In this document: positions 13,162 through 35,786 of the stretch, piece after piece
How the letters are laid out: every line of letters starts with the position of its first letter
How positions within the stretch are numbered: the first letter of the stretch is position 1
From: Cognatishimia activa
Lineage (GTDB): Bacteria; Pseudomonadota; Alphaproteobacteria; Rhodobacterales; Rhodobacteraceae
Reading direction: 5' to 3'
NCBI RefSeq assembly: GCF_017798205.1
Contig: NZ_CP060010.1
Coordinates: 62,001 to 126,000, forward strand
Length of the DNA: 64,000 nucleotides
Made by a program: the position numbers and the translations under genes
Notes under the pieces: generated by a model
Told to the model about the DNA's origin: nothing
What the model saw: only the letters and a program-made list of their open reading frames with translations
Database searches by the model: none

Positions 13162-13255
13162 GCTCGATAAGGTGTCCTTAGTTACCCGCGCAGCCTAGGA
13201 TCACAAATGGCCGATTTTGAGGCGGCTTTCGGATTATTTCATATCCAAAAAGGCT

Positions 13256-13921: not shown

Positions 13922-14409
13922 GTTTTCAACTCCAAAACAAGAACAGACAAAGCTCCGCCATCGCACCCGAAGGGCACGCTTGAAAAGAACTTGCTGAAGG
14001 GGGCCGTTGCCAGTTTCGGATCCCTTCGGATCCTGGAACTTTTGGTCCGCTATTTCAGCGCCTGTGGAATGTGTTCAACTTGTGTCTATTTTTACCAAAA
14101 ATGGCGCAATTCGTCCATGAATGCGGAAACAAGGGTAATTTATAAGTTATTGATTTTATTTGATTTTACGAAAATTGACGCAAATTTCATGACAAAATCG
14201 TCAAATTCCCTGATTTTTTGTCCCAAACCGCGAACCAATCCACAGTTTTAGTGAAATTTGTTCACCCAAGCGAACCAAAACTGTTTCGCGAGAAAGATCA
14301 ATTTTCGAACAATTTGAACTTTGTTTGCCGAAATTTCCGGTCAAATTTCGCCCTTCAATCCAGCGTTGAATTTGATTCGCGAATTACGCGCAAGCGGGCC
14401 AATAAAAAA
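13922..14409. promoter_or_regulatory. AT-rich intergenic region upstream of the priming transferase
   Basis: About 490 bp without a supportable gene. The part from 14090 to 14390 is far richer in A/T than its surroundings and repeats AAATTT/AATTTG-like words. It contains the inverted repeat GTGAA-N5-TTCAC (14251-14265), the palindrome ATTCGCGAAT (14375-14384) and a tandem TTCGGATCC pair (14015-14023 and 14025-14033). The layout suggests regulation of exopolysaccharide initiation, perhaps by an AT-binding protein. No confident -35/-10 pair was found. Confidence 0.5.
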
Positions 14410-14460: not shown

Positions 14461-15726
14461 TCAAGAGCTTGAAATCACGACAACTATTGCCATTGCTAGC
14501 AAAATAGCCACAAAAGCACCGGTCACCCAGATCATCCGTTTTAGCACACGCTCACGTTTGACCTGAACATTGGGAATAACTGCGACCGCACGCAGTCCCA
14601 AGAGGCGTTCCAGCTGCGCTTCCGTGCGGATCACTGGATTGCGTAATTCCATCAAGTAGACCAAGCCAACGCCAACCATCATCGCCAAAATACAGCCCGC
14701 CAAGGCAATCTTTTTGCGATTGGGCGACACAGGCTCATCCGGAGCAACCGCGCGTTCCAGAATAAAGAAGCTTTCAGACCGCTCGGTTTCCTGCAGCATC
14801 AGCCGCATTTCGGCCTCTGCCCTGCCCCGCGTGATGGCTTGATATTGTTCCGTCAATTGACGCAACTCGCGCTCAAATCCGGTCAACTGGCGTTCCAGCT
14901 CGGGGGCTGCTGCAATAACCACTTCGACCTGATCGATACGGGCGCGCAGCAGATTGCGCTGCTCTTCCAGGCGGGACACACGGTTGGCAAAAACCGTACT
15001 GTTGGCGCGCTGGCCAGAGTTCAGTTCCAGGATTTCGCGCGACACGACAAGTTCTGCATCCCGCAGCGTCCGCAACTCTTCGCGTTGTGCCGTGATGCCG
15101 GTCCCCAGTGAGGCCGAGTTCTTTTGTCGGAAGTCCGCGATCTGGCTTTCATATTCACGGATAGCCGCGCCGATACGCTCTTCTTCACCCTCAAAAAACG
15201 CCATAGTTTCGCGCGCACGCATTTCGCGGCGGGCGCGGTTCTGATCAACCACGTTGTCGACAAGCTCATTGGCGACCGCTGCCGCCAAGTCGGGATTGCC
15301 GAGGGCAACGGTAATACTCAGCGCCGTTGGAATGACATCCGGACGCCAGGCCAATGCCGGATCCGAGATCTGCGACACAGAGGCCGCCTCGCGCAGTGCC
15401 GTAATTTTCTTATTCGGCGTCATCGAAGGGAGATCGTCAAAAAGATCAAACTCATCGATGATGCCTTGCAGGTTTTCCCGCGCCATCACGCGTTGCTCGA
15501 TGATCTGCAATTGCTGCAGGATCTGCCCGTTGGCCGTCGCCGTCGAAGACGCCGTTTCGATGTCAGGCTGCTCGATCTGGATAACTGCCATGGTTTCATA
15601 GGTGCGTGGCAGGCTCAGGGCAAAAACCAAAGAGGCAATCACGCCGACAAACACCACGAACACCAATAGCGTCACGTGGCGCAGAAACGCACGAAGGATC
15701 TCGTCTAGGATGGCAAGCCTGATCAT
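14461..15726 (-). CDS. Wzz/GumC-type polysaccharide chain-length protein
   Basis: A 421-residue protein with one membrane helix near residues 18-37 and another near 395-415, enclosing a periplasmic region rich in Glu, Arg and Gln heptads (about 150-330), probably a long coiled coil. The motif PDEPVSPNRKKIALAG just before the second helix is the usual PxxP-type Wzz C-terminal motif. It lacks a fused kinase domain. The separate CpsD-like protein at 4488-5240 may be its cytoplasmic partner. The gene follows the PPTase after 84 nt and is the last of the NRPS/PKS-containing run before a strong terminator. Confidence 0.88.
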   Translation of the reverse strand: MIRLAILDEILRAFLRHVTLLVFVVFVGVIASLVFALSLPRTYETMAVIQIEQPDIETASSTATANGQILQQLQIIEQRVMARENLQGIIDEFDLFDDLPSMTPNKKITALREAASVSQISDPALAWRPDVIPTALSITVALGNPDLAAAVANELVDNVVDQNRARREMRARETMAFFEGEEERIGAAIREYESQIADFRQKNSASLGTGITAQREELRTLRDAELVVSREILELNSGQRANSTVFANRVSRLEEQRNLLRARIDQVEVVIAAAPELERQLTGFERELRQLTEQYQAITRGRAEAEMRLMLQETERSESFFILERAVAPDEPVSPNRKKIALAGCILAMMVGVGLVYLMELRNPVIRTEAQLERLLGLRAVAVIPNVQVKRERVLKRMIWVTGAFVAILLAMAIVVVISSS

Positions 15727-15810: not shown

Positions 15811-16536
15811 TTATCCTGTGACCGAATCTTGGAAATCCGCGTCACTGTGATGGCCCTCGCCAATCCAGCAGAGGCTGAGGATCTGATCGCCCACGAGCGC
15901 TGTCATGCCTTTGAAAATCGTGCCGGCTTCAAACGGGCCCGCATCCTTCATCAGACGTGCATCAAAACGACCCTGGCGGTCAAAGACGACGCTGAGATTG
16001 TCAAAACCAAAGATCTTGCGGCTGATGGTGTACTGGCATTTATAGACCGCCTCTTTGGCGGCAAAGAAACGACGGGCCACCATGCCACGGCTTTCAAACG
16101 GCAGCTGGCGCAGCCAGGCCAGTTCTTCGGGGCGGCAGATTTCCTGAAATAGTTCGGCTTCGACTGGGATGGATGGTTCAATGTCCACGCCCAGCGCTTT
16201 AAAGCGGTCACGTTCTGCGGTCACGGCGATACAAGCAGTGTCGTCATGCGCAATGCTGCCAACAATGGCGCGTGGCCAAATCGGTGCGCGGTCATCCCCG
16301 ACGGGAATAGCAGAAGGCGCACGGCCCAAGGCCAAAAGCGCACGGCGCGCAGCCATACGGCCCGCCGCGAACTCGCGCTGACGCGCGGGCACAGCTTTGG
16401 AAATGGCTTGTTCTTCGACCGGCCAAAGCGGATCTGGCTCGGCTGTCGGAGAGGTTACAGAAACTGCGACACCTGTGGGCAGCACCGCACGTGCGGCCAG
16501 TTCCAGGCGTGAATTATGTCGCATCATCATCGTCAT
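15811..16536 (-). CDS. 4'-phosphopantetheinyl transferase (EntD/Sfp type)
   Basis: This 241-residue enzyme transfers phosphopantetheine from coenzyme A to a serine of carrier domains. It shows SIAHDD near 94-99, the Mg-binding GVDIEP (116-121, D118 and E120) and the second signature FFAAKEAVYK (157-166, with E162). The pattern IWPRAIVGSIAHDD and CRPEELAWL is closer to EntD than to AcpS. Its start overlaps the NRPS stop as ATGA, so it is made with the synthetases it most likely activates: the carrier domains at NRPS S1476 and PKS S1788. Confidence 0.93.
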   Translation of the reverse strand: MTMMMRHNSRLELAARAVLPTGVAVSVTSPTAEPDPLWPVEEQAISKAVPARQREFAAGRMAARRALLALGRAPSAIPVGDDRAPIWPRAIVGSIAHDDTACIAVTAERDRFKALGVDIEPSIPVEAELFQEICRPEELAWLRQLPFESRGMVARRFFAAKEAVYKCQYTISRKIFGFDNLSVVFDRQGRFDARLMKDAGPFEAGTIFKGMTALVGDQILSLCWIGEGHHSDADFQDSVTG

Positions 16537-19500
16537 AGCTGGTTCTCCTTACGAGTGGCACGTAATGCGCGCCGTTTGGACATGGCAGCGTGACGAGCGA
16601 GAGACCGCTCGTTCGTTGTTTCCAACACGCGGGTCTCAGGCGCCTGAGCAGAAGGTGGCATTGCCTGAGGATGTGTCGGAGTCTTGGTGGTTGTGCGCCC
16701 GGATTCCCTCGAGCCGGTCAGGCTCTCCAGGCGCGCAACGAGGTCTCCCAGGACCGGGAAACGGAAGATGTCGGTGATGGACAGCGCTTTGAAGCCCAGC
16801 GCATCGCGGAGTTCACGATGGGTTTGCACGGCCAAGAGGCTATGCCCGCCAAGGTCAAAGAAGTTGTCCTTAAGGCTGACCGCATCCGTCCCAAGGACAC
16901 GGCACCACACCGAAGAGATCGCCGCGCCAATGTCTGTGTCCGAGGAGGGTACGGCGTCAGACACTGGCGCAGGATCTGGTGTCGAGGCCTGAGCCGCCTG
17001 TGGCGCTGGGGCGTGGGCCTCGGGTTTTGCGGACCGTTTTGCAGGCTTTGGCAAAGCCTTACGGTCCACTTTTTTATTCGGCGTCAGGGGAAATTCCGTC
17101 ACCTGAACAAAATGGCTTGGCACCATATAGTCGGGCACCTCGGCGTCGAGATGCTGGCGCATGGTGGTTTCATTAGCGTCACCGCGGACATAGGCGACAA
17201 GACGGACATCGCCGGGCGTGTCTTCGCGGGCGATGACGACGGCTTGTGCGACATCGGCAAGCGCTTCTAGGCGGGTTTCGATCTCGCCCAGCTCTATGCG
17301 ATGGCCGCGGATTTTCACTTGGTGATCGGCACGACCGATAAAGTCGAGGCCTCCGTCCAGACGCGCGCGCACCAGATCGCCGGTGCGATACATGCGCCCT
17401 TCTCCGCAGAACGGATCGGCGCGATAACGATCTTCGGTCAGATCCTCGCGCTCCCAATAACCGCGCGTGACCCCTGCCCCGCCGATCCACAATTCGCCAG
17501 CCGCGCCCAACGCGACAGGGTTTTGCGCATCGTCCAGAACATAAAGCTGCGTGTTCGCGATAGGTTTGCCAATGCCGACGATGCCCTCATCGGTCTTGGC
17601 CTCTTCGGTCGAGGACCAGATCGTGGTCTCGGTCGGCCCGTACATATTGGTGATCCGCGCATCCGTGAGCGCTTTTAGATCTCGCACAAGCTGACCCGGC
17701 AGAGCTTCGCCGCCAACCATCATATGCTTGATCTGCACCAGCGCCGTGCTGGCCTCATCGTTCATGGTGAACATGCGGGCCATGGATGGGGTGCATTGCA
17801 GATGCGTCACCTCATGGCGGATGATCTGCCCTGCGATCGACACATCGCTGTCAGCAACCCCCTGCATGTTGGCCGAGGCCGCAACGACTTGTGCCAAAGG
17901 ACGCAGGCCCTCCAGAACCACATCGGTGGCAATGCCATAGTCGATCAGGCAGGCAATTTCTGTCACGCCGATGGCTTTGACCTGCTCAACCCGCGCCAGA
18001 CAGTCTTCGACGGTGCCAAAGAGGCCGGATTCCTCGAAATAGCGGTGGAAGGCATAGTCCAGAATGCCCTCAAGCTCGTCTTCGGTCAGAGAGCCAAGGT
18101 CGATCTCGAATGCGTTGCTGGCCCCTTCAGGCTTTTTGAACGCAGGGAAGGCCCAGGCGTATTGCTTGATCAGCCCCGCGGCTGAACGCAGATAGTCTTT
18201 CATCGGGCCGCGTGCGATTTCCCGCGCTGTTTCGCGATCCTCAGCCACAAAGCTGTGCAACATCAGCGTGACCTTATAGTCCGCCGGATCAAAGCCCGCC
18301 TCACGCAGCGCCTCATGGTAAATCTTGATCTTGCCCGCGACCTCATCAACCGACTGGCCCAACAAATGGGTCAGAACGTGACAGCCATTCCGGCCGGCCT
18401 CGCGCCAGGTTTCAGGGTTACCAGCAGTCGTGACCCAGAGGTCGATGTCCTTGGACACCGGGCGCGGTTGGGTCAGAACCGCGTGCATTTCGCCATCTTT
18501 CCGCGGGAAAGACACCTCTTCGCCGCGCCATAGCTTGCGCAGCTCTTGCATCTGTTCAAACATCGCCGGTTTGTTGGCAGGCGGCGTGTTTTCCGGGCGC
18601 AGGACAAAGTCATCCGGCTGCCAGCCGCTGGCAATCGCAAGGCCTGCTTTGCCGTTGGTCAGATTGTCGATGACGGACCACTCTTCGGCGATGCGCGCCG
18701 TATGGTGAAGGGGCGCAACACAGCTCCCTGCTCTGACACCTATGTTCTTGGTGACAGCCGCAACCGCCGCACCCGTCACCGAAGGGTTCGGGTAAGGACC
18801 GCCAAAGGCGTGAAAATGACGTTCCGGCGTCCAGACTGCGCAAAACCCATTGTTGTCGGCAAACTTCGCACCTTCCAGCAGCAATTCATATTTGCCGCGC
18901 CCAATGCCATCGTCATTGCCCCAGTAAAACAGGCTAAAGTCCATGCCGCCCGCACCAGACCCAATCGGCCCGTCAGAAATCTGAGCCGCCCCTTCATCGC
19001 CCGCAATCACAACCTTGAAGCCGCGCGAGAGGGTGTAGAAGAGCTCCAGCACCGAGATATCAAAGCTGAGGCTGGTGACCGCGAGCCAAGTGCCCGGGTC
19101 TTTGTGGTCGATCTGGGCATCCATGCCCGCAAAGAAATTCACCACATTGCGATGCTCGACCATGACGCCTTTGGGGCGACCGGTGGAGCCTGACGTGAAG
19201 ATCAGATAGGCGAGGTCTTCGCCTGTGGCTTGGGTCTCAACAGGCTCTTTGGAGGCCGCCGTGAAGGCCGGGTCGCTGTCGATTTTAAGAACTTTTGCGT
19301 CACTTGCAGGCAAGCTTTCGGCAATCGCGTCTTGGGACAGGATGAACTTGGCCCGGCTGTCCTCAACATAGATCGCGATGCGGTCCGCCGGGAATGCGGG
19401 ATCAAGCGGCAAATAGGTGCCGCCCGCTTTCAGAATGCCAAGACAGGCCACGACCAGATCATGACCCCGACGGCAATGCACGCCTACGACGTCCCCTCGG

Positions 19501-21266
19501 GACATGCCATTGGACAGCAAGACATGCGCGCATTGGTTGGCGCGGGCCTCAAGGTCAGCGTAGCTCAGAGTGTCATGCTCAAAGACCAGAGCCGTTGCAT
19601 CCGGCGTCTTGGCGGCTTGGTCGGCAATCAGTGCATGGATAGTCGCGGACAGGTCTACGTCGCAGTCCGTTGCGTTCCACTCGGTCAATAGATGCGCCTT
19701 TTCCGCAGGCGGCAAGAGATCCAGATCGGCGACGTCCGCTTCGGTGCTAGAAAGCTGCTCGGCCATCCATTCCAAACGCGCAACAAGCCGTCCCGCATGG
19801 GTTTCGTCCACGCGGTTGGCGTCATAGCGCAGCCGCATGCGCGACCCAGAAATCATCAAATTCAGAGCAACACCGTCGATGGCTCCCGCATCAGGATCAG
19901 TGATCACGGCCAGATCAGGCACTTCCAGCGCCGCGAGGTCTGGCGCGCGGGCGATCAAGTCCAGTGGATAGGTGTCGCGACGCGTCACGGCATCCATGTC
20001 TGTGGCAGTGGCTTTCACTGCGGCGCCAGCGGGTTGATCTTTGGCAACCTCGACGGAAAACGGAACCCAAGAGGGCAGATAGCCCGCGGACCGCGTCATG
20101 CCCTCATGGACAATGGCGATTTGCGCGCCCTCTTCACAGCCGCTCATCGACGCAAACAGGCGTGCGATGGTCAGTTGTTCGGCGGCATCAAGCTCTGAAG
20201 AGACAGACAAGCTGGCCCAATCCGCAGGCTCTGACATAGGTTTGATCAGTGGCAGGCGTGCGGGTGCATAGTTGCGCAGAGTGTCTCGCCAGTATGCCTC
20301 GTGTTTTGCAACCTTAGACAAGGCGCGTTCCAGTCGGTCGCCGTTCTTGGGTGCAGATAGGACAGACCCGACACTAAGCGCCTGAACATCAGTCACCGCA
20401 TGCCCATTGAGATCGCAGAAATCAGAGAGCACGACACCCCCCTTGGCACAGGCAACGGTCAGCTTGCCATCTGCACTGGCAAGAACCTCACCAGGACGGC
20501 CTTGCGCATCTGTCAATTCAGCGGCCCGCACGGCCAGAATATCGCCTGCAACTGAGATTTTCGGCAAAGTCAGCGGGTTCCAGTAATCCCCGTGATCGAG
20601 CGCTTTGATTAGGGAAACGACCTCAGCGGCTGGGCGATCAAAATCGATCCGCCCCCCGGCACCCGGCCGATCCGCCGCGCCAAAGTAACGGCGCGCAGAA
20701 AGATCCTGTTTGCGGCGCGGCTTTCCGCCCGCCTCAAGCGCTTGGATCACCTCGGGAAAGCTGTCCATCGCAGCTTCAAAACATTTTGTGTTAAGCGCCA
20801 AAGCGGTGTCTTCGCGCGCGATGTCAAAGCCGCGCTGCACAAGGATGTCTCCCTCGTCGACGCCGTTTTCAATCAAATGCCAGGTGATCCCGTGTTTGGT
20901 TTCTCCGTTCAACCGCGCCCAAACCGGCGCGTTCAATCCGGCGTAATCCGGCAGAGGCCCGTCGTGGAAATTCACCACACCCTCGGCCTTTGCCAAAAGC
21001 ACTTCCGGAACGATCTGCAAATTCGCAATGCTCAAGAGCCAGTCAAACTCGCCCTCAACAGCCACATCCTTCAGCGCACCATCATGCAAAACCACGGCAT
21101 AACCTTGCGCCTTAGCCCAATCGGCAATCACTTTAGAGCGCGTCACGACCTGCGCCACTTCGTGCCCAGCGGATTGCCAGGCCTCGGCACATTGGATCAA
21201 AAGCGTTTCATTTCCGATGAAAAGACCGGACAATGGGGCTGCGACGGATTTGCTCTGAAAATTCAT
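16533..21266 (-). CDS. NRPS: formyltransferase-half C-adenylation (embedded luciferase-like monooxygenase)-carrier
   Basis: A 1577-residue one-module synthetase. Residues 10-300 are a formyltransferase with the triad N99, H101 and D137 intact. About 310-520 matches only the C-terminal lobe of a condensation domain (HEAYWRDTL onward), with no HHxxxDG. The adenylation domain has A3 TSGSTGRPKG (691-700), A4 FDIS (735-738), A5 YGPTE (1209-1213), A7 YRTGD (1293-1297) and A10 NKKVDRKAL. Between A4 and A5, at about 765-1128, sits an FMN luciferase-like monooxygenase of the MupA/Atu3671 kind. The carrier serine is S1476 in DLGGHS. There is no thioesterase; the last 55 residues are basic and may dock. 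The ATG at 21266 overlaps the upstream stop (ATGA). Confidence 0.92.
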   Translation of the reverse strand: MNFQSKSVAAPLSGLFIGNETLLIQCAEAWQSAGHEVAQVVTRSKVIADWAKAQGYAVVLHDGALKDVAVEGEFDWLLSIANLQIVPEVLLAKAEGVVNFHDGPLPDYAGLNAPVWARLNGETKHGITWHLIENGVDEGDILVQRGFDIAREDTALALNTKCFEAAMDSFPEVIQALEAGGKPRRKQDLSARRYFGAADRPGAGGRIDFDRPAAEVVSLIKALDHGDYWNPLTLPKISVAGDILAVRAAELTDAQGRPGEVLASADGKLTVACAKGGVVLSDFCDLNGHAVTDVQALSVGSVLSAPKNGDRLERALSKVAKHEAYWRDTLRNYAPARLPLIKPMSEPADWASLSVSSELDAAEQLTIARLFASMSGCEEGAQIAIVHEGMTRSAGYLPSWVPFSVEVAKDQPAGAAVKATATDMDAVTRRDTYPLDLIARAPDLAALEVPDLAVITDPDAGAIDGVALNLMISGSRMRLRYDANRVDETHAGRLVARLEWMAEQLSSTEADVADLDLLPPAEKAHLLTEWNATDCDVDLSATIHALIADQAAKTPDATALVFEHDTLSYADLEARANQCAHVLLSNGMSRGDVVGVHCRRGHDLVVACLGILKAGGTYLPLDPAFPADRIAIYVEDSRAKFILSQDAIAESLPASDAKVLKIDSDPAFTAASKEPVETQATGEDLAYLIFTSGSTGRPKGVMVEHRNVVNFFAGMDAQIDHKDPGTWLAVTSLSFDISVLELFYTLSRGFKVVIAGDEGAAQISDGPIGSGAGGMDFSLFYWGNDDGIGRGKYELLLEGAKFADNNGFCAVWTPERHFHAFGGPYPNPSVTGAAVAAVTKNIGVRAGSCVAPLHHTARIAEEWSVIDNLTNGKAGLAIASGWQPDDFVLRPENTPPANKPAMFEQMQELRKLWRGEEVSFPRKDGEMHAVLTQPRPVSKDIDLWVTTAGNPETWREAGRNGCHVLTHLLGQSVDEVAGKIKIYHEALREAGFDPADYKVTLMLHSFVAEDRETAREIARGPMKDYLRSAAGLIKQYAWAFPAFKKPEGASNAFEIDLGSLTEDELEGILDYAFHRYFEESGLFGTVEDCLARVEQVKAIGVTEIACLIDYGIATDVVLEGLRPLAQVVAASANMQGVADSDVSIAGQIIRHEVTHLQCTPSMARMFTMNDEASTALVQIKHMMVGGEALPGQLVRDLKALTDARITNMYGPTETTIWSSTEEAKTDEGIVGIGKPIANTQLYVLDDAQNPVALGAAGELWIGGAGVTRGYWEREDLTEDRYRADPFCGEGRMYRTGDLVRARLDGGLDFIGRADHQVKIRGHRIELGEIETRLEALADVAQAVVIAREDTPGDVRLVAYVRGDANETTMRQHLDAEVPDYMVPSHFVQVTEFPLTPNKKVDRKALPKPAKRSAKPEAHAPAPQAAQASTPDPAPVSDAVPSSDTDIGAAISSVWCRVLGTDAVSLKDNFFDLGGHSLLAVQTHRELRDALGFKALSITDIFRFPVLGDLVARLESLTGSRESGRTTTKTPTHPQAMPPSAQAPETRVLETTNERSLARHAAMSKRRALRATRKENQL

Positions 21267-22291
21267 GACTGCTCTCCATTCAGGATCGGCACGCCTTTCG
21301 GGTCCGTGATCTGCCTCTGTTTGCGACCGGCACTCGAACACGCGGCCTTTAAGCCATGGAGTGCCATGTCAATGAGGAAGAATTTGGGCGTGGATGCGGG
21401 TTTTCTTTGGAGGATCTCTCGACATCTCGCAAAGCTGCCTCCTGCCAAATGCAGGAGCGTGGCCGCCACCGTATAGGCGCGACCGTGGTTTCTGAGGAAG
21501 TAGTAGAGGCGGCTGTCAAACCAATAGCTCGGCATGCGTTTGTGGGTCTTCATGCCTGTGGACACAGACCCAATATGGGTCACAACGCTCTCGCGGACAT
21601 AGGTCATTTTATGGCCCGCAAGGACTGCACGCAGACAGAGGTCGGTTTCTTCGAAATAAAGGAAGAAGCTCTCGTCAAAGAGGCCGATGTCGTCCAGAAC
21701 TTCGCGGCGGATCATAAGGGATGCGCCGGCCAGCCAACCCACATGGCAGGTCGCGTCGGGAATAGGCAGCGCGACGATTTTGTTGCGCAAAAGACGACTG
21801 ACCGGGCCGAATTTGATCGCACCCTCAAATTCGCTGGATATCGTGGGGAAGCGAAACGCGGTTTGATGCGGCACCCCATCGTCTCCGATAGTCAGACTGC
21901 CAGCAAACCCGGTTTCCGCGTTTTCTTCCATATGCTTAAGCAGATAAGAGATCGCATGGGGTTCGGGGAAAGCGTCGGAATTCAAGATGTAGATGTAGTC
22001 GGGGCGTTCGTCCGGCATGGTCTGAAAGCCAGCCCGAATGCCAAAATTATTGCCCGCGCCATAGCCGCCATTACGGCCCGATTGCAGCACGCTGACCATG
22101 GGCCAGTCCTGCCGCGCCACAGCATTGCGCATCATCTCAAACGAGCCATCCTGACTATCATTGTCCACGATCAGGATCTCACCACGAATGCCATCCATCG
22201 CGGCCACAGCGGCCTCAGCGGCATCCAGCGTCATCTGCGGCGTGCGCCAGTTCAGGATGACGGTCAGAACTGTTGGATCTGTCTTGCTCAT
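21263..22291 (-). CDS. Family 2 glycosyltransferase between the PKS and NRPS genes
   Basis: A 342-residue GT2 enzyme of the rhamnosyltransferase-like type. It has VILNWRTPQMTLD at the N-terminus, IVDNDSQDGS, the loop GGYGAGNNFGIR, ILNSDAFPEP with the metal-binding Asp, and FDESFFLYFEETDLCLR near residue 215. No membrane helix is evident. The gene overlaps the PKS stop by ATGA at its start and the NRPS start by ATGA at its end, so a glycosyltransferase is translationally locked between two synthetases. This suggests that it glycosylates the PKS/NRPS product or puts that product on a sugar; both are inference. Confidence 0.88.
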   Translation of the reverse strand: MSKTDPTVLTVILNWRTPQMTLDAAEAAVAAMDGIRGEILIVDNDSQDGSFEMMRNAVARQDWPMVSVLQSGRNGGYGAGNNFGIRAGFQTMPDERPDYIYILNSDAFPEPHAISYLLKHMEENAETGFAGSLTIGDDGVPHQTAFRFPTISSEFEGAIKFGPVSRLLRNKIVALPIPDATCHVGWLAGASLMIRREVLDDIGLFDESFFLYFEETDLCLRAVLAGHKMTYVRESVVTHIGSVSTGMKTHKRMPSYWFDSRLYYFLRNHGRAYTVAATLLHLAGGSFARCREILQRKPASTPKFFLIDMALHGLKAACSSAGRKQRQITDPKGVPILNGEQS

Positions 22292-25200
22292 CCTGCGGCC
22301 CTCCGGAATGGAACAATGACCTGATCGGCCTCTTCGGCGTCCTCGATGGCTTTGCGGATATGGGCGGCAAGCACCCGCACGTTGGGTTCCAGAACCATGC
22401 TGTCATGGTCGCCTGGCACCTCCAGCACCGAAAGATCAGACACAAATTGGCCCCAATCGTTATCCGCCAGCACATAAGCGCGGTCCTTGTCGACCAGACG
22501 GTCCTCGGCCACCTGCCATTTGCCAACCATTGGCGGGCGATACAGCGCGACGCGGCCGGACCATGGGCGCACCTGATAACTGGCGACCGCCTTCAAGAAG
22601 GCCGCTTCGATCTCGGCATTGTGGAAATGCGCCTCGCCATCATCCGCTTGCGTTTCAGCCTGTGGGCGACGTTTCTCGATCTCCCAGGCGATGCGGTTCT
22701 TGGCCCAGCGCGTGACATAACCGATGCCACCGGATTTCAGCTCTTGCAGCTGGATCTTCACGCGATCCTCGCGGCTGAGCGGGCGGCGTTGCGGCAAGGG
22801 CGTGTCCAGCATCACAACAAGCGAGACCTCTTCGCCCATGGCCTCAAGCTGATGGGCGATCTCATAGGCCGTGATGCCTCCGCCAGAGAAACCACCGAAC
22901 ATATAAGGCCCATGCGGCTGCACCTGCTGCATTTCGGCAATGTAATCCCGCGCGGCTTTTACGATGGAGTCATGCGGAGCAACGTCGCCAAACAATCCCC
23001 GCGCCTGCAGCCCATAGAAGGGCCGATCCGAGCCGATCAGATGCCCCAGATGGCGCAGGTTCAGGACGTTGCCATACATGCCCGCGACCAAGAAGAATGG
23101 CGTTTTGTCGGAATGCAAAGCGCCATGCATCGGCACCAGATGCGTGTAACGACGTTCCGGCGCGCTTGGGCCGGGGATGATCTCGGCGCTCTCGGCCTCT
23201 TGGGGGCCGATACGCTCCTCGATCAGGGCGGCGCAGCTCTCGATGGTCGGCGCTTCAAACAGGACTGAGATCGGGAATGACACGCGATAGGCTTTCTTGA
23301 CCATCGCAAAGAGGCGCACGGCGATCAGGCTGTGACCACCAAGGTCAAAGAAACTGTCGTGAATGCCGATTTGCTCGATGCCCAGAAGCTCGGACCAGAA
23401 GCCCGCCAGAGTGCGTTGAACATCGGTTTCCGGTGCCACGAAATCAGCATCAAGATCCGGGCGCTCAAAGCCCGCGGTGTCTTCAGGCTCGTCTCCTTCC
23501 GCCGCCGCCTGATCCATCAATCCATGCAGATCCAACGAAGACACCACAACGCGCGGCAAGCCCGTTGCCAGAGCACGCCTCAGCGCTTCGCCCCCCAGTT
23601 CGGCCGGAATGCCCTCGGCGATATTGTCAGCCAACCGTTGCTCGCCTGGCGAGAGCGTTTGTGGCGCGTCTTCCTGATCGCGACGAATGTCTTTCGCGGA
23701 CACAGGTGGAGTTGACCCCAGCGAGCCACCAACTGGTAGCTGTTTGATCGTCAACCCGTCGACTTCGACGCAAACACGGCCATCCAGATCCGCTAGGATT
23801 ACGTCAAACGACGCGGTCCCCTCAGTTACCGAGCCGCTGGTCAAGGTCACATGGCTGATGATGTCTGCTGGCAGCGTCGCGAAATGGCGCAGTGCCCCGT
23901 AGCTCATGGGCACCCAGAGGGAATCCGCCTGATAGCCCTCAATCAGATCCATCGCCCAGCCGGTCCCGATATCCAGCAAGCCCGGATGCAAGGACATGTT
24001 CTTTGCCTCGCTGGAAAGCGCGTTTTGCAGGCTGAGGCACGCAAGACCTTCGCTTCCGCTAAAGCTCTGAGACACAAGTGTTTTCCAATGCGGCCCAAAG
24101 TTCAAATGAGCCTCCTGACGGGTCACCAAGGTCTGACCAACCGGTGCGTCTTCGACAGAGGTAAACCGCGTGCTCAGGGATTTGACGTCCAAATCCTTGG
24201 GCATCGACAGAGCGACCATGGAAATGCGCCCTTCGGCATGCAGAACAAACCCGTCCTGATGGTTGCCAAGGATCTCAAACTCGTATCCGGCATCGGTTTC
24301 TTTCAGGCTGATCCGCAGCTTGCGAGACTGGCCGTCCTCGACATGGAACGGGCGCAGGAACAACAGATCACGCACCTCATAGGCGCGGGTTTCGTCCAGC
24401 GCCTGCATCGCTTCGGAAATCAGCTCCAGATACCCCGTGCCCGGCAGGATCGCCGCCCCATCCCAAGTGCGGTGCTGATCCAACATCCAGCAATTTTCCG
24501 CGCTGAGCTCGGCGGAAAACACGATTTCATTGCCCGGCAACACCCGCAGGCGCTTTAAAACAGGGGCGGAAATGATCCGATCCTGCGGTTTCTGAACCAC
24601 CTCTTGGCCAAGGCTATCCACAGCCATACCCACATCGGCCCAGACGCCCCAATTCACAGACATCACCTGCGTCTTGTCGCCCTTACGCGCGGCGGCATAG
24701 GCATTCAGGAATTCATTGGCGGCGACATAATCCACCTGCCCCGCCGGCGTCGTTACCGTCGAGGTCGAGGAGAAGAGAACCAGCCAATTCAGCTCTCCAT
24801 CCGCGAAAAGCTGATCCAGAACCAGCGTGCCATGCAGCTTTGGCGCCATGACATCCGCCACATCCACCGAGGATTTCGCCAGCATCGGCCCATCGTTGAT
24901 CACACCAGCCGCATGCACGACGCCGTTGATCTTGCCAAACCGCGCATCAACTTCGCGCACAGCGCGTTGCATATCGTCCAGATTGCAGACATCAGCGGCC
25001 ACGATCATCAACTGACCCGGCAGTTTTTCCAGATCCTCGACCAGACGTACACGGCGCGCCAGCGGATCACTTGCCGCGCGGAAGGCTTTGATTTTATACC
25101 AATTTTCACGATCCGGCAGCGCCGAGCGGCTTTGCAACACGACATTCGCGCCCTCAGCCAGCATCTCGCGCGCAACGGTTGCGCCAATGCCACCAAGACC

Positions 25201-28200
25201 GCCGGTGATCAAATAAGTCTCGCCCATGCGCCATTTGACCGGCTCTTGCGTCAGGGCATGCGGCTTGGCCACTTGGGTGAACCGTTTTACGCCGCGATAG
25301 GCGATTGTGCCCTCGCTGGGATCGGCCAAAAGCTCTTCGAATAGGCGATCTGTGAGACCCTCTGTGAGTTCGACATCAATAGAGGCCCCGCTCACACCGG
25401 GCACCTCGCGAGGCAGCACACCCAGAGGTCCTTTGATCACCGATTTCTCGGGATATGGCAGCGCCTCACCCGCGACTTTCGCCGCGCCATTGGTGACGCT
25501 CATCACATGGACGGGACGCGGCAGGTTTTCTTCAACTATCGCTTGGGCGAGATAGAGCAGCGTGTGAAAGCCCATCTCGAGGTTGCGGTGAAAGAAACTA
25601 CTGCCTGGACGGAAGGTCTCGGCCTCGGTCACAAGCCACAGATGCAGGATGCGATCTGGTGCTCGACCATTGGCGATCAAATCGGCAATCAGTTGATCAT
25701 AGCCCTCACGACCACGTTCCGGTGCCAGCACATAGCGATCTGCAGCCAGTTTTCCAAAAGCATCGCCGGTAGACACTTCGGTCACAGAATGCCCTGCAGC
25801 GCGCAGCTTATCAGACAGATCGCGTCCCAAACCGGTGTCATCCATAAAGATCAGCCAACTGTGTGGCGCGCTCAGGCTTGGATCGGTCAAAAGATCTGGA
25901 TCGCAATCGGCAAGCTCTGGTTTCCAGGCCATGCGATAGCCCCAATCGACAATATTTTCCTGATGCATCAAGGCCTGAGGCGCAGTCGCCGCGGACTCAC
26001 TTGGCGCAATGAAATACGGCGCCTTTTGGAAAGCATATGTCGGCATCACAACGCGATTGCGCCGCGCCTCGCCCCAGATCTGAGACCAGTCGAACTCGAC
26101 GCCACAGGCCCAAAGGCGGCCAAGGACCTCCATAAAGAACTTGTCGTCTTCGATCTCTTCTTTCGGATGGCGCAGGCTCGACAGAACCTTGCCACCCGCG
26201 ATGTCGGAATGCATGCGTGCGAGAGAACTCAGCGCTTTGCCGGGACCGACTTCGAGATACACGCGACCGGGGATTTGTGCCGCCGTCGCAAGGCAATCAG
26301 CGAACATCACCGTGCCACGCAGGTGGCCAACCCAATAGTCTGGATCTTGCGCGTCCTCAGCGCTCAGCACCTGACCCGAGCGGTTCGAGATGATCGGCAT
26401 CTGCGGTGCGTTCAATGTGATGCCGGCGAGATAGGCGCGGAAGTCGTCCAGAATGGGTTCCAACATCCGGCTATGGGCCGCGATATCGATCTGGATGCGT
26501 TGGGCTTCGATCTCGTCCTTGGCAAGGCGCGAGTGCAAGGCATCAAGCGCCTGTTGAGGGCCGGAGACGACAGTAAGGTCACTCGCGTTCTTCGCTGCAA
26601 TATCAAGGGTTTGATCTATGTAAGGCGCAAGCGCCTCAATAGACAGAGGTACGCTTAACATGCCGCCCGCAGGCACTGTGTCAAAAAGCTGGCCGCGTAG
26701 CAGGACGAGCCCGATACAGTCCTCAAAGCTCATTACACCTGCGAGGCAAGCCGCGGTGTTTTCGCCCATTGAATGGCCAACCAGAGCCGCAGGTTTCACC
26801 CCCCAGCTCATCCAAAGCTGCGCCAGCGCGTATTCCGTGATCATAATCAGCGGCAATTGCACCGAAGGTTGCGTCAGCTTGGCATCAGCCTCTTCGCGCA
26901 ACATATCCTCGGCCAGCCAGATCGCGCGGGGATCATAATCAACCTTGGTCCGCAGAATATCGAGGCCCTTGTCCATCCATTCCTGAAACACCGGTTCGGT
27001 TTCATAGAGATCCTGCGCCATGCCCGCGAATTGCGCGCCGCCGCCGGGGAACATGAAGACCACTTCGGGCGCATCAGACTCTGCGGCGTGATCAAAGACC
27101 CGCGCTTTGTCGCCGCTTTCCACCAGGGCAATGGCTTGTTCATGGCTTTCGGCCACGACGACACGGCGTTTCTCAAAGGCGCGGCGACCTTCTTGCAGGG
27201 TGTAGGCCACATCCGCCAAAGGCACATCAGGGTTATCGCGCAAATAACTGGCAAGGCGTGCAGAATTACCGTCCAGAGCTTTGGATGTCCGCCCCGAAAT
27301 CGTCAGCAAATGAAACGGCCACTCGGCCTCTTCCGACGGGGTTTGCGCGGGAGCCTCTTCGATCACCACATGCGCGTTGGTCCCGCCAACACCCAACGAA
27401 TTCACACCTGCACGGCGCGGGCCTTTGTGGCTGACCCAATTCGTCAGACGGTCGTTCACTTTGAACGGCGAGGTTTCAAAATCAATCGCAGGGTTTGGCG
27501 CCTCGTAGCCCAAGGACGGCGGCAGTTGTTTATTATGCAAGCTCAGCGCGGTCTTGATCAGGCTCGCGGCCCCTGCGGCAGTGTCCAGATGGCCGATATT
27601 GGTTTTGACCGATCCGATCCGGCAATAGCCCGCATCGTTAGTGGTTGCGCGAAAGGCTTCAGTCAAAGCCGCGACCTCAATCGGGTCGCCCAGATAGGTG
27701 CCGGTGCCGTGGCATTCTACGTAGTCGATGGTGTCAGCCGAGATATCCGCGATGCCATGCGCCTCGGCAATCGCGCCAGCCTGCCCGTCCACGGAGGGCG
27801 CGAGGTAGCCTGCCTTGTCCGACCCATCGTTGTTCACCGCCGTCGCGCGGATCACGCCCCAAATGTGATCATTGTCTGCCAATGCATCGGACATGCGGCG
27901 CAACACCACGACGCCCGCGCCAGAACCAAAAACAGTCCCCTGCGCGCGATGGTCAAAGGCGTGGCAATGGCCGTCTGGGGACAGGATCTCTCCGTCCTCA
28001 AAGATATAGCCGCGACCATGCGGCATCTCGATGGTCACGCCGCCCGCAAGCGCCATGTCACATTCGCCGTTCAACAGCGACTGCACCGCATAGTGCGTTG
28101 CCACCAATGATGTGGAACAGGCGGTCTGTACCGAGAGGCTAGGGCCTTTCAGATCCAGAAAGTGGCTCAGGCGCGTGGACAGGAAATCCTTATCATTGCC

Positions 28201-28692
28201 CGTGTGGCGCAGCAGGAACATGCCCGTGTTGTCGACCAGATCACGATTGCTGCAGACGTTGAAATAGAAATAGCTGCCCATGCCGCAGCCTGCGAAGACC
28301 CCAATCGGTCCGCCGAATTTCTCGGGCATGTGGCCTGCGGTTTCCAAGGCCTCCCAGCTGACTTCAAGGAATTTGCGATGCTGAGGGTCCATGATCGCGG
28401 CCTCTTTGGGGCTGAGGCCAAAGAACTCTGCGTCGAATTTTTCGTAGTCTTTCAGGATCGCGGCGGATGGCACGTAGTTCTTGTGGCGCATGCGCGCTGC
28501 GGACTCGCCTGCCTCGGCGAGGTCGGCCTCGCTGAGTTGCGTGATGCTTTCAACGCCGTCGCGCAGGTTGGCCCAATAATCGTCCAGCGTATCAGACCCC
28601 GGCAAATGGGCTGCCATACCAACGATGGCAATATCATTTTCCGACCATGTATCTTGCGCGTTTTCTTTGACCATTTGACCACTCGTCTGCAC
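22288..28692 (-). CDS. Type I PKS module KS-AT-KR-DH-ACP-TE
   Basis: About 2134 residues. The ketosynthase (20-450) has TACSTS (C192), H328 in ECHGTGT and H368 in KTNIGHL. The acyltransferase (545-860) has GHSMG (S641), favouring malonyl-CoA. The ketoreductase (1150-1360) has TGGLGGIG and the Tyr in VDYVAAN. The dehydratase (1400-1670) has H1407 in DQHRTWDG and D1574, but lacks the usual Gln four residues on. The carrier is DLGGHS (S1788); the thioesterase has GFSGGG (S1936). There is no enoylreductase. KR before DH reverses the usual order. The GTG at 28692 is preferred for its GGGGGAGGA site 4-5 nt before; TTG 28755 and ATG 28674 are alternatives. Confidence 0.93.
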   Translation of the reverse strand: MQTSGQMVKENAQDTWSENDIAIVGMAAHLPGSDTLDDYWANLRDGVESITQLSEADLAEAGESAARMRHKNYVPSAAILKDYEKFDAEFFGLSPKEAAIMDPQHRKFLEVSWEALETAGHMPEKFGGPIGVFAGCGMGSYFYFNVCSNRDLVDNTGMFLLRHTGNDKDFLSTRLSHFLDLKGPSLSVQTACSTSLVATHYAVQSLLNGECDMALAGGVTIEMPHGRGYIFEDGEILSPDGHCHAFDHRAQGTVFGSGAGVVVLRRMSDALADNDHIWGVIRATAVNNDGSDKAGYLAPSVDGQAGAIAEAHGIADISADTIDYVECHGTGTYLGDPIEVAALTEAFRATTNDAGYCRIGSVKTNIGHLDTAAGAASLIKTALSLHNKQLPPSLGYEAPNPAIDFETSPFKVNDRLTNWVSHKGPRRAGVNSLGVGGTNAHVVIEEAPAQTPSEEAEWPFHLLTISGRTSKALDGNSARLASYLRDNPDVPLADVAYTLQEGRRAFEKRRVVVAESHEQAIALVESGDKARVFDHAAESDAPEVVFMFPGGGAQFAGMAQDLYETEPVFQEWMDKGLDILRTKVDYDPRAIWLAEDMLREEADAKLTQPSVQLPLIMITEYALAQLWMSWGVKPAALVGHSMGENTAACLAGVMSFEDCIGLVLLRGQLFDTVPAGGMLSVPLSIEALAPYIDQTLDIAAKNASDLTVVSGPQQALDALHSRLAKDEIEAQRIQIDIAAHSRMLEPILDDFRAYLAGITLNAPQMPIISNRSGQVLSAEDAQDPDYWVGHLRGTVMFADCLATAAQIPGRVYLEVGPGKALSSLARMHSDIAGGKVLSSLRHPKEEIEDDKFFMEVLGRLWACGVEFDWSQIWGEARRNRVVMPTYAFQKAPYFIAPSESAATAPQALMHQENIVDWGYRMAWKPELADCDPDLLTDPSLSAPHSWLIFMDDTGLGRDLSDKLRAAGHSVTEVSTGDAFGKLAADRYVLAPERGREGYDQLIADLIANGRAPDRILHLWLVTEAETFRPGSSFFHRNLEMGFHTLLYLAQAIVEENLPRPVHVMSVTNGAAKVAGEALPYPEKSVIKGPLGVLPREVPGVSGASIDVELTEGLTDRLFEELLADPSEGTIAYRGVKRFTQVAKPHALTQEPVKWRMGETYLITGGLGGIGATVAREMLAEGANVVLQSRSALPDRENWYKIKAFRAASDPLARRVRLVEDLEKLPGQLMIVAADVCNLDDMQRAVREVDARFGKINGVVHAAGVINDGPMLAKSSVDVADVMAPKLHGTLVLDQLFADGELNWLVLFSSTSTVTTPAGQVDYVAANEFLNAYAAARKGDKTQVMSVNWGVWADVGMAVDSLGQEVVQKPQDRIISAPVLKRLRVLPGNEIVFSAELSAENCWMLDQHRTWDGAAILPGTGYLELISEAMQALDETRAYEVRDLLFLRPFHVEDGQSRKLRISLKETDAGYEFEILGNHQDGFVLHAEGRISMVALSMPKDLDVKSLSTRFTSVEDAPVGQTLVTRQEAHLNFGPHWKTLVSQSFSGSEGLACLSLQNALSSEAKNMSLHPGLLDIGTGWAMDLIEGYQADSLWVPMSYGALRHFATLPADIISHVTLTSGSVTEGTASFDVILADLDGRVCVEVDGLTIKQLPVGGSLGSTPPVSAKDIRRDQEDAPQTLSPGEQRLADNIAEGIPAELGGEALRRALATGLPRVVVSSLDLHGLMDQAAAEGDEPEDTAGFERPDLDADFVAPETDVQRTLAGFWSELLGIEQIGIHDSFFDLGGHSLIAVRLFAMVKKAYRVSFPISVLFEAPTIESCAALIEERIGPQEAESAEIIPGPSAPERRYTHLVPMHGALHSDKTPFFLVAGMYGNVLNLRHLGHLIGSDRPFYGLQARGLFGDVAPHDSIVKAARDYIAEMQQVQPHGPYMFGGFSGGGITAYEIAHQLEAMGEEVSLVVMLDTPLPQRRPLSREDRVKIQLQELKSGGIGYVTRWAKNRIAWEIEKRRPQAETQADDGEAHFHNAEIEAAFLKAVASYQVRPWSGRVALYRPPMVGKWQVAEDRLVDKDRAYVLADNDWGQFVSDLSVLEVPGDHDSMVLEPNVRVLAAHIRKAIEDAEEADQVIVPFRRAAG

Positions 28693-28772
28693 TGCTTCCT
28701 CCCCCGAAATCCAGACAGACTCGGGGCGTTGGTTAACGGATAGACCGCAAACCAAGCGTTAAATGGGAGAGA

Positions 28773-30161
28773 TCAAGGCGAATTTAGGGCGACCAAAGCG
28801 GTGACAGCGGGCCAGTTCACCCAAAAGGCGAGTAGCACCAATATCACCCCGAGCGCCCCAAAGACCCCATCGTGCAGAGGATCCCAGGTGCCCTGATGGC
28901 GTGCCAGCCACACCACGACAGGGTAAATCAGAATGCCTGCAAGGGTCGCACCGATGAGGGCACCGAAGAGGCCCCCGAGCACTACACCCGCCCAAAGCCC
29001 CGCGATCATCAGGACCGCCCGGGCGGCATTCAAAACAAAGAAACGACGGCTGTCGCCTGCCGCCAAAGCCGCCTGATCATAGGTCAGCAGGATCAGATGC
29101 GTGATTTGAGAAACGGCGACAAAGACAAGAACGCCTCCGGACAGCATATATCTGGAATCATAGAGAAAACCGATGATCCAATTGCCGGAAAGTGCAAGGA
29201 TCCCCGACATTCCCAGCAAGGCCGCCGACACCAAAAACCGCATCTTGCGCAGTTTGGCGAAGTTCTCAGGTGACTCTTTGGGTGGGCGTTCTCGATAGAT
29301 CGGAATGAGCACCTTCTGGATCGCAAGATTGCCCAATAGGAACGGGAAACTCGCGAGGAAAAACCCGATATTATAGATCCCCAGCATCTCGATGCTGAGG
29401 AATTTCCCAAGGATGATCTTGTCGCCCTGATAGAGGAAGAACCCCGCGATCGTAGAGAGGAATATCCAGCGACCGAAGTTTATCAACTCTGAGACCGCCG
29501 ACTTGTCCCAACCAAACCGATTATGATCACCCGGCAAAAACAGCGTATAGAGCACCAGATGCGCGACCGATGTCGCCAGCCCACTAATCACCAGCGCCCA
29601 GATAGAGCCCGTCAGCCACGCCAATACCACGCCGACGACAATCCCAAAACTCTGCCCCGCCAGTTCCAAGAGCGTCACGCGCCCCATCATCAGGTGGCGA
29701 TTGGCCGTATCCTTGCGCGTTGGGAACAGGCCGGACAGCACCAGAGTGATCCCCAACACTGGCAGGATCTGCGCCAGTTGAGGGGCCTCATAGAACGCCG
29801 CCAAAGGCCAAGACAAGGCAATCGCGCAGAGCCAAAGGATCACACCGCGCCCGACCTGCAGCGTCCACGCTGTATTGAGGAACTTGGGATCATCGCCCCG
29901 TTTGCTCTGCATGATAGCGGGGGTGACGCCTGCGTCAGAAAACATGTTGAGGCCCTGGATGACCATATAGACCAAGGCCATCATGCCGAAGGCTTCAGGG
30001 AACAAAAGCCGCGTCAGGATCAGGTTGGACGCCAGTCGCAGGGCTTGTTGCGTGCCATAGCTGCCGACCGTGAGCGCCGAACTCCGCATCGCCCGCGCGC
30101 CAAGGCCAGAGCCTGTAAACAGCCCCCTCACCCGTCCGCGCAAGCCGCCCGCGTTATTCAT
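28773..30161 (-). CDS. Wzx-like polysaccharide/lipid-linked oligosaccharide flippase
   Basis: A 462-residue membrane protein with about twelve to fourteen helices of the MVF/polysaccharide-export fold. It starts with the typical RSSALTVGSYGTQQALRLASNLILTR block, followed by FPEAFGMMALVYM. Such proteins flip lipid-linked oligosaccharides or similar molecules to the periplasmic face. The ATG at 30161 overlaps the upstream GT2 stop as ATGA and is chosen over an ORF start 5 codons earlier. The PKS gene follows after 80 nt. It could serve the exopolysaccharide or the PKS/NRPS product. Confidence 0.88.
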   Translation of the reverse strand: MNNAGGLRGRVRGLFTGSGLGARAMRSSALTVGSYGTQQALRLASNLILTRLLFPEAFGMMALVYMVIQGLNMFSDAGVTPAIMQSKRGDDPKFLNTAWTLQVGRGVILWLCAIALSWPLAAFYEAPQLAQILPVLGITLVLSGLFPTRKDTANRHLMMGRVTLLELAGQSFGIVVGVVLAWLTGSIWALVISGLATSVAHLVLYTLFLPGDHNRFGWDKSAVSELINFGRWIFLSTIAGFFLYQGDKIILGKFLSIEMLGIYNIGFFLASFPFLLGNLAIQKVLIPIYRERPPKESPENFAKLRKMRFLVSAALLGMSGILALSGNWIIGFLYDSRYMLSGGVLVFVAVSQITHLILLTYDQAALAAGDSRRFFVLNAARAVLMIAGLWAGVVLGGLFGALIGATLAGILIYPVVVWLARHQGTWDPLHDGVFGALGVILVLLAFWVNWPAVTALVALNSP

Positions 30162-30985
30162 CGTCCACGTTTCCATTCATCGCCAGACTGATCCTGCGTG
30201 AGCCGCACGATCAAGCTCACGCCCGCATAGGCGATGAACCCAAACGGATCGCCCAGCGCGTATCCAAGGATGCGCAATTTGGAAAAATCGCCCTTGTCTT
30301 CGTTCTTCATGAGCTCGGGATACAGTTCTTCAAGCTGGGCGACGCCCCTATTCTGGCGTCGGCGGACTTTAATTAGATTTTCCCAGCCTTCGGCCACGGG
30401 CCAGACATAGGAGCTGGGCACGGCAATGCGCTCGCGCCCCGTGAAATGCAGGCGCACATACATGTCGTCCGAGATGATCTCGGGGAATTTACCCCAACGG
30501 GCGCGCCCAGCGCGGTTGACGGCAAAGAGGCCGGATCCGGGCACAGAATTCGACATAAAAGGCGTTTTCATCCAAAACCGTGCATAGGCCTTGCTCACAC
30601 TACTCGCCGCGGCCATTTGCAACTGGCCACTGGCCCAGGCAGGCTCTTCTTTGTCCAGAACCCGTGTGATTTGGAAAATGACCCTCTCGGACACACGCAC
30701 ATCGGCGTCCAGATAGATCAGAACATTGCCCTCAGCTGCACGTTCGCCGACGTTCAACGCATGCAGCTTGTCGCCGCGTTCAAGGTCGATGATTTTAAGA
30801 CCCCACCCGAGTTCAGCCGCCAGAACCTGGTACTTGCTGGCAACCTCAACGGTGCGATCCTCGCAGCCATTGGCGACGACAATCACCTCGGCTTCCTCAA
30901 CGCGCTTGGATTTGAACAGCGCGTCCAGACAATAGCCCATCCAGGCTTCTTCATTATTTGCGGGGATGATGATGCTTGTCTTCAT
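30158..30985 (-). CDS. Family 2 glycosyltransferase
   Basis: A 275-residue GT2 enzyme with IIIPANNEEAWMGYCLDAL at the N-terminus, VVANGCEDRT, a KLHALNVG donor-site block and the metal motif YLDADVRVS near residue 95. The expected acidic acceptor motif is SDDMYVR near 168, followed by KVRRRQNRG, a QxxRW-like region. A weak hydrophobic stretch lies near the C-terminus. It is the first gene of the minus-strand run that continues with flippase, PKS, GT2, NRPS, PPTase and Wzz. Substrate unknown. Confidence 0.87.
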   Translation of the reverse strand: MKTSIIIPANNEEAWMGYCLDALFKSKRVEEAEVIVVANGCEDRTVEVASKYQVLAAELGWGLKIIDLERGDKLHALNVGERAAEGNVLIYLDADVRVSERVIFQITRVLDKEEPAWASGQLQMAAASSVSKAYARFWMKTPFMSNSVPGSGLFAVNRAGRARWGKFPEIISDDMYVRLHFTGRERIAVPSSYVWPVAEGWENLIKVRRRQNRGVAQLEELYPELMKNEDKGDFSKLRILGYALGDPFGFIAYAGVSLIVRLTQDQSGDEWKRGR

Positions 30986-35701: not shown

Positions 35702-35786
35702 GAGGCTGACTTGCCCGAAATAGGTTTCACTGTCCAGAAAGGAAGTTATACTAAGGTCTAAGAAGACAAAGAACCACAGGCAAACA

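Follow-up and report, generated by a model that had tools for sequence, protein, structure and literature searches.

Why should a polyketide synthase (PKS) and a nonribosomal peptide synthetase (NRPS)-type protein, with a glycosyltransferase between them, lie inside an exopolysaccharide (EPS) locus? The question is raised by a 64,000-nucleotide window of the Cognatishimia activa contig NZ_CP060010.1 (positions 62,001 to 126,000), whose minus strand encodes, from 15811 to 30985, a family 2 glycosyltransferase (GT2a), a Wzx-like flippase, a type I PKS, a second family 2 glycosyltransferase (GT2b), an NRPS-type protein and a phosphopantetheinyl transferase (PPTase). An initial annotation had described these six genes with EPS genes alongside, and our analysis recovers the same arrangement. 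Our answer, held with moderate confidence and drawn from sequence comparison, is that the PKS and NRPS would form a dedicated acyl-decoration branch of a Wzx/Wzy-type EPS pathway. Their product would probably be a short N-formyl-(hydroxy)glycyl acyl group and not a peptide.

The NRPS-type starter module and its PKS partner

The initial annotation had counted the NRPS-type protein as one NRPS module without a thioesterase. Besides an adenylation (A) domain and a peptidyl carrier domain (PCP), the protein has an N-terminal formyltransferase (FT) domain and an embedded luciferase-like monooxygenase (LLM), neither of which that annotation mentioned. No condensation domain scored above cut-off in the NRPS with Pfam and NCBIfam profiles, none was found in the organism's own genome at E ≤ 1e-3, and the canonical C-A-PCP module with an HHxxxDG condensation domain is not present in the protein. 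Residue conservation was measured in 92 rows reduced to 86 distinct relatives, with pieces of ≤1400 aa from the 80 loci described below excluded. The FT residues Asn99, His101 and Asp137 are conserved in 85 of the 86, the remaining one having a gap, and the PCP serine is found in 84, with a gap in two. The AlphaFold2 (AF2) model of the FT and the stretch that follows it has a mean pLDDT of 90.7 and its top Foldseek matches are methionyl-tRNA formyltransferase and ArnA; the FT of LgrA is among the PDB matches. About 220 folded residues separate the FT from the A domain. They bear a weak likeness to the C-terminal lobe of condensation domains, with a weak profile match seen in 2 of 24 members, and are a probable remnant of that lobe.

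The LLM is inserted into the A domain at residues 777–1127, between A4 (734) and the A5 side (~1153). It matches PuwE in the PDB (6ket, 335 bits), and the region is covered in all 86 distinct relatives. The specificity code of the A domain, read in the residue register of GrsA, is DILQ[MLFYA]GM[IV]WK in 84 of the 86 distinct proteins (90 of 92 rows before removal of six duplicates); one of the others reads DILQLGLIWK and one is incomplete. PMC12283262 gives DILQLGMIWK for four glycine domains with a monooxygenase (MOX). We assign the A domain a putative glycine-type specificity.

The catalytic residues checked in the PKS are conserved in 77 to 79 of 79 distinct relatives (reduced from 85 rows, with pieces of ≤2050 aa from the 80 loci excluded), and those of the thioesterase (TE) domain comprise a Ser in 79, an Asp in 78 and a His in 77. 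One of two adjacent serine columns in the KR domain is variable, with Ser in 57 and Ala in 22. The TE of Pks13 is present among the matches of the PKS TE. Neither protein reached the cut-off of an NCBIfam equivalog among the 25 best families of 126 for the PKS and 124 for the NRPS.

The FT and the lack of a condensation domain identify the NRPS as the starter module; the PKS, which bears the TE, is the terminal one. The NRPS gene directly precedes the PKS gene, in the same orientation, in loci from Methylobacterium (L039), Deinococcus (L040) and Aliiroseovarius (L043) and in genome G438, which resembles L039; the order in the three named loci indicates that glycine probably starts the chain and the PKS ends it. 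The opposite, PKS-first order was rejected because the TE sits on the PKS and the NRPS comes first in these four cases. The acyl-peptide product suggested initially was also rejected, since no condensation domain was found above cut-off in the NRPS or at E ≤ 1e-3 in the genome and the NRPS resembles a formyl-glycine starter module that would feed the PKS. The operon's PPTase is the single place in the genome where 4PPT_N was found, so both carrier domains likely depend on it.

Four junctions had been described as 4-nt ATGA overlaps. Those at PKS/GT2b (22288–22291), GT2b/NRPS (21263–21266) and NRPS/PPTase (16533–16536) are present, and the GT2a/flippase overlap exists only with the flippase's second ATG, the first ATG giving an overlap of 19 nt. 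The PKS and flippase do not overlap. The longest open reading frame (ORF) of the NRPS starts at GTG 21341; ATG 21266 agrees better with relatives. The PKS ORF opens with TTG 28755, and an in-frame GTG at 28692, preceded by the Shine-Dalgarno-like GGGGGAGGAA, is probably the true start. PKS start codons lie ~40–105 nt past the flippase stop in the placed genus genomes, except in the near-identical G006. Overlaps of 4 nt are by themselves frequent in operons, and among the best 80 loci a −4 start codon could be used at 42 of 80 PKS/GT2b, 42 of 80 GT2b/NRPS and 44 of 71 NRPS/PPTase junctions. The overlaps, conserved only in part, were rejected as stand-alone evidence; conservation of gene order is the stronger evidence that the unit did not arise by chance.

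Conserved gene order and co-occurrence with exopolysaccharide genes

The same block occurs in all eight other genomes of the genus; in G006 the contig stops after the Wzz gene. The NRPS of G017 is split over two frames and its PKS over three with the EPS genes kept, a copy that is either broken or mis-sequenced. A scan of named genomes gave at least 580 confirmed loci encoding the FT part, and the surroundings of the best 80 were examined. As the best 80 of at least 580 these loci are biased to close relatives, and six of them are sequences identical to genus genomes, so the genus and 80-locus synteny counts overlap. By title, they are mostly Rhodobacterales, plus Hydrogenophaga/Burkholderiales and Hyphomicrobiales. 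The operon order checked in this way is conserved: 79 loci have the PKS upstream in the same orientation, 78 have GT2b immediately before the NRPS, and 71 have a PPTase after it. Core EPS genes were found in 73 of the loci, two or more of them in 69; those with no EPS match (L067, L083, L088, L110, L118, L122 and L126) are all, except L088, stretches of less than 11 kb.

Twelve plasmid loci were viewed, 11 of the 17 records with at least 80% coverage plus H18 (77%). All 12 contain the PKS, in a PKS-GT2b-NRPS row (five), with a divergent PKS (four) or with the NRPS before the PKS (three), and EPS genes are nearby in every one except L043. An exosortase XrtD gene lies near this Aliiroseovarius locus. 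Wzy_C and GT4 account for 2 of the 10 ORFs scanned in the Methylobacterium locus. The Paracoccus plasmid loci L038:1-2531 and L044:1-1593 carry a second NRPS-type gene with a WecB/TagA/CpsF glycosyltransferase gene directly after it. A class-wide sample had the NRPS in 7 of 289 genomes: four of the organism's own family (its own genome included), G438 and two weak matches, G390 with a multi-module NRPS and G405 with a cut contig.

Co-occurrence was measured across the family in 149 genomes, each from a different genus and the own genome among them, using E limits of 1e-40 for the NRPS and GT2b, 1e-100 for the Gfo/Idh/MocA-epimerase fusion (Gfo-epimerase), 1e-30 for Wzy, Wzx and the secreted SGNH/glycoside hydrolase (GH)/RTX protein, and 1e-50 for a control gene. 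The FT-containing NRPS is present in 55 of the 149; G150 and G156 have two copies each. All 26 carriers of the Gfo-epimerase are NRPS-positive, as are 52 of 59 carriers of Wzy, 52 of 58 of Wzx, 53 of 58 of GT2b and 51 of 56 of the SGNH/GH/RTX protein. Conversely, few of the 55 NRPS-positive genomes lack Wzy (3), Wzx (3), GT2b (2) or the SGNH/GH/RTX protein (4), and 29 lack the Gfo-epimerase. Fisher p values for the EPS genes range from 5e-14 to 7e-32, in tests that count related genomes as independent. The control gene at 2600–4057, just outside the block, showed no positive association (16 of 60 carriers NRPS-positive, odds ratio 0.47, p 0.04), which rejects a general tendency of EPS-side genes to accompany the NRPS. 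Wzy lies ~420 kb (G096) and ~178 kb (G112) from the NRPS on the same contig, distances that weaken plain linkage as the cause of co-occurrence; the two genes are on different contigs, which could be neighbors, in G086, G093, G110, G120 and G123. Synteny and co-occurrence together bear out the earlier proposal of one coupled PKS-GT2-NRPS-PPTase unit tied to polysaccharide genes.

The exceptions are few. Among NRPS-positive genomes, Wzy is missing from G122, where the contig is cut, Wzx from G086, and the SGNH/GH/RTX protein from G047 and G171. In G168 and G046 the NRPS occurs with none of the five EPS partners. These two of the 55 are the NRPS-positive genomes without both GT2b and Wzx, so the PKS/NRPS genes seldom occur apart from the glycosyltransferase and flippase genes, and the stretches seen there (19.9 kb in G168; 6.2 kb, the whole contig, in G046) belong to a different, larger NRPS/PKS cluster. 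Among genomes with EPS partners and no NRPS, G052 is fragmentary, G129 and G136 hold the SGNH/GH/RTX relative alone, and G101, G104, G116, G128, G142 and G161 have a divergent sister locus in which Wzy is joined by relatives of GT2b, Wzx or both. The sister-locus stretches of those six (10–20 kb) gave no PKS/NRPS match, and neither did those of G171 and G150, which have a sister locus in addition to the NRPS (the sister loci L127 to L134 belong to G142, G171, G101, G116, G128, G161, G104 and G150, in that order). The GT2b of the sister loci is 31–38% identical to that of the window. GT2b relatives in EPS loci where no PKS or NRPS match was found make GT2b probably a polysaccharide glycosyltransferase that belongs to EPS assembly, and the glycosylation of a free small molecule that had been suggested for it is probably not its role. 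This pattern suggests that one branch of these EPS loci gained the assembly line or that the other lost it.

The genes surrounding the operon are listed with it in Table 1. The parts of a Wzx/Wzy locus are present, namely an initiating sugar transferase, glycosyltransferases, Wzx, Wzy and a chain-length protein, with Wzy assigned from a weak Pfam match and hydrophobic segments only. A plus-strand ORF at 13217–14251 that overlaps the sugar-phosphate transferase has no Pfam match and is probably spurious. The start of the 937-aa secreted protein is SGNH-like by its motif. Its AF2 model is of low confidence (56.4) and its top Foldseek matches are xylanases; given the poor model, these glycosidase matches are a mere hint, and an enzyme that trims the decorated EPS would fit. 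A 569-aa protein without a Pfam family is encoded at 781–2490, with homologues close to the EPS genes of several genomes of the genus.

Table 1. Features of the operon and of the surrounding EPS genes, in window coordinates.
Feature	Coordinates	Strand	Evidence
GT2a, family 2 glycosyltransferase, 275 aa, first gene of the operon	30158..30985	-	PF00535 E 7e-18; syntenic in 8/8 other genus genomes
Wzx-like flippase, 467 aa	28773..30176	-	PF13440 E 6.6e-51
Type I PKS, KS-AT-KR-DH-ACP-TE	22288..28692	-	Pfam domains; likely start GTG 28692
Thioesterase domain of PKS, end approximate	22306..23022	-	PF00975 E 2.6e-17
GT2b, family 2 glycosyltransferase, 342 aa, between PKS and NRPS	21263..22291	-	PF00535 E 2.2e-12
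NRPS initiation module, 1577 aa, FT - C-lobe remnant - A1-A4 - LLM - A5-A10 - PCP	16533..21266	-	
FT domain, boundaries approximate	20397..21233	-	PF00551 E 8.4e-15
Probable condensation C-terminal-lobe remnant, N-lobe absent	19662..20336	-	PF00668 positions 190-243, E 4.5e-5, under curated cut-off
Embedded MupA/Atu3671-type LLM	17886..18938	-	TIGR04020 475.6 bits, cut-off 244.45
PCP	16728..16922	-	PF00550
Sfp-type PPTase	15811..16536	-	PF17837, PF01648
Secreted protein, 937 aa: SGNH-like N-terminus, glycoside-hydrolase-like middle, RTX end	31082..33895	-	PF00353 alone
Wzz-like chain length determinant	14461..15726	-	PF02706 just over cut-off; TIGR03007 under cut-off
Initiating sugar-phosphate transferase	13256..13966	-	PF02397 E 1.7e-57
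Wzy-like polymerase/ligase	11668..13161	-	PF04932 E 5.4e-5, under cut-off; hydrophobic segments
WecG/TagA/CpsF glycosyltransferase	10922..11671	+	PF03808
Gfo/Idh/MocA oxidoreductase	9644..10801	-	PF01408
GT4 glycosyltransferase	8409..9656	-	PF00534
GT2 glycosyltransferase	7432..8451	-	PF00535
Gfo/Idh/MocA-epimerase fusion, probable sugar nucleotide enzyme	5331..7430	-	PF01408, PF01370
P-loop ATPase, probable BY-kinase part of EPS machinery	4488..5240	-	PF10609; relative annotated CpsD/CapB tyrosine kinase

A proposed acyl-decoration pathway and its rivals

Domain content, catalytic residues, the glycine-type code, the site of the flavin-dependent monooxygenase (FMO), gene order and EPS co-occurrence are properties of the sequences themselves. 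The pathway proposed from them would start with the PPTase arming the PCP of the NRPS and the ACP of the PKS. The A domain would charge the PCP with glycine, the FT domain would N-formylate the bound glycine and the embedded LLM would hydroxylate its α carbon, as in myxothiazol and melithiazole. The PKS would accept this starter and extend it with malonate, with the KR and DH domains reducing and dehydrating the chain. The TE would then release a short acyl group of the 4-formamido(-4-hydroxy)crotonyl type and might pass it straight to a sugar in the lipid-linked repeat unit. GT2b and the other glycosyltransferases would complete the repeat, Wzx would flip it and Wzy would polymerize it. We infer these enzymatic steps, and likewise the precise product, how many rounds the PKS performs, the linkage to sugar and the moment of transfer. 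In the best reading the acyl group would reach the EPS repeat either through the TE or after release; Pks13 is a precedent for a PKS TE that acts on a sugar.

Several points weigh against acyl decoration of the EPS. Besides the relatedness of the genomes in the Fisher tests, 29 of the 55 NRPS-positive genomes have no Gfo-epimerase, which means that the sugar part varies. Five to seven carriers of a given EPS gene (Wzy, Wzx, GT2b or the SGNH/GH/RTX protein) have no NRPS, and several of these have the sister locus, so a related EPS can be made without the NRPS. The same starter/PKS pair occurs within a larger NRPS/PKS cluster in L043, G168 (L135) and G046 (L137), and the queries used found no EPS gene in these three stretches; L043 has an annotated GT2 ~16 kb off. 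The FT is encoded by a separate ORF in the Deinococcus locus, the condensation remnant depends on a sub-threshold profile match, and the A-domain code depends on the residue register of GrsA rather than on one computed against a solved structure. The TE could merely hydrolyze the product, and no acyltransferase able to attach a free acid to sugar was identified in the operon.

The larger clusters of L043, L135 and L137 also fit a free small molecule such as a signal, a siderophore-like compound or an antibiotic to which GT2b would add a sugar and which the flippase would export, the genes merely traveling with EPS genes. The PKS carries its own TE, and a binding-protein-dependent ABC permease gene lies beyond the block at 34043–36097; a gene of this kind is also nearby in G004, G006, G007 and G008. 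We regard a free product as unlikely, although it is the strongest of the alternatives. Co-occurrence across genera with one family each of Wzy, Wzx and sugar enzyme, including the two genomes with a distant Wzy, argues against it, as do the GT2b relatives in EPS loci without PKS/NRPS matches, and no dedicated small-molecule exporter was found among the scanned operon genes.

The adjoining GT2a and flippase genes could instead point to a lipid-like or terminal cap or anchor of the polysaccharide, and PKS-made acyl groups are attached to saccharides in mycobacteria. A single PKS module without an enoylreductase (ER) would make only a short acyl unless it iterates, and the co-occurrence with the polymerase favors a feature of the repeat; a cap or anchor is improbable. 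Least probable of all is an iterative PKS whose several rounds would extend the glycine starter into a polyene or an aromatic product, an EPS-bound pigment or ultraviolet screen. The KS-AT-KR-DH-ACP-TE module without an ER could iterate but shows no sign of doing so, and the scanned operon genes include no obvious tailoring genes.

Comparison with known systems and implications

The starter module resembles the glycine modules of myxothiazol and melithiazole (MtaG and MelG) in its glycine-type code and its A-embedded monooxygenase. PMC10204066 places their FMO between a4 and a5 of the adenylation domain, the same site as here, and reports hydroxylation of a glycyl α carbon in those two pathways. 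In those pathways cleavage frees the chain as a terminal amide, whereas the present module starts a chain. A preceding chain condensed onto glycine and released as an amide is not seen in this locus, where an FT stands in front, no condensation domain scored above cut-off and the partner is a PKS. With the FT-A-PCP of LgrA (linear gramicidin), whose specificity is valine, the module shares an N-terminal formyltransferase with Asn-His-Asp on a loading module; it differs in the glycine-type code, the embedded monooxygenase and the stretch of ~220 residues between the FT and the A domain, which are directly joined in LgrA.

Fabrubactin-type systems use FMO/LLM α-hydroxylation, and we know of no EPS locus among the solanimycin/fabrubactin-type LLM systems. 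SolF of solanimycin is alike in α-hydroxylation of a glycyl group by an FMO, which PMC10204066 places between a8 and a9 in contrast to the A4/A5 site found here; solanimycin and fabrubactin are secreted metabolites. Ordinary Wzx/Wzy EPS loci have the same sugar transferase, glycosyltransferase, Wzx, Wzy-like, Wzz-like and BY-kinase-like genes, to which this locus adds the assembly line. Transfer of a PKS chain to a saccharide is known from mycobacterial Pks13 and trehalose mycolates and from Pks5 and lipooligosaccharides. Those chains are long and fatty; here a short glycine-started acyl would enter a Wzx/Wzy polysaccharide. The single parts are already known and their combination is new. A literature search, with subscription papers mostly outside its scope, found no description of the locus or of the EPS-decoration idea among the papers listed, and the parts covered of PMC12283262, PMC4359443, PMC8739492, PMC10204066 and PMC9396620 do not describe the locus.

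Secondary-metabolite assembly lines are usually taken to produce free small molecules, and this locus would be classed among the cryptic PKS-NRPS clusters. Its starter module is present in 55 of the 149 sampled genera of the family and co-occurs with one polysaccharide polymerase family. If the EPS carries the product, many 'orphan' clusters, possibly hundreds (at least 580 FT loci), are polysaccharide genes. A formyl-glycine-derived EPS substituent that has gone unrecognized could, if true, alter metal binding, cross-linking, surface attachment and degradability. A bolder version, which we think improbable, is that in a widespread class of Rhodobacterales EPS the repeat unit has an obligatory part made by the assembly line and that the FT and LLM yield a glyoxylyl starter, the N-formyl-α-hydroxyglycyl thioester shedding formamide much as in the myxothiazol cleavage, which would place a reactive 4-oxocrotonyl group on the EPS. 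Such an aldehyde-enoyl group would be a built-in cross-linker or anchor of the biofilm.

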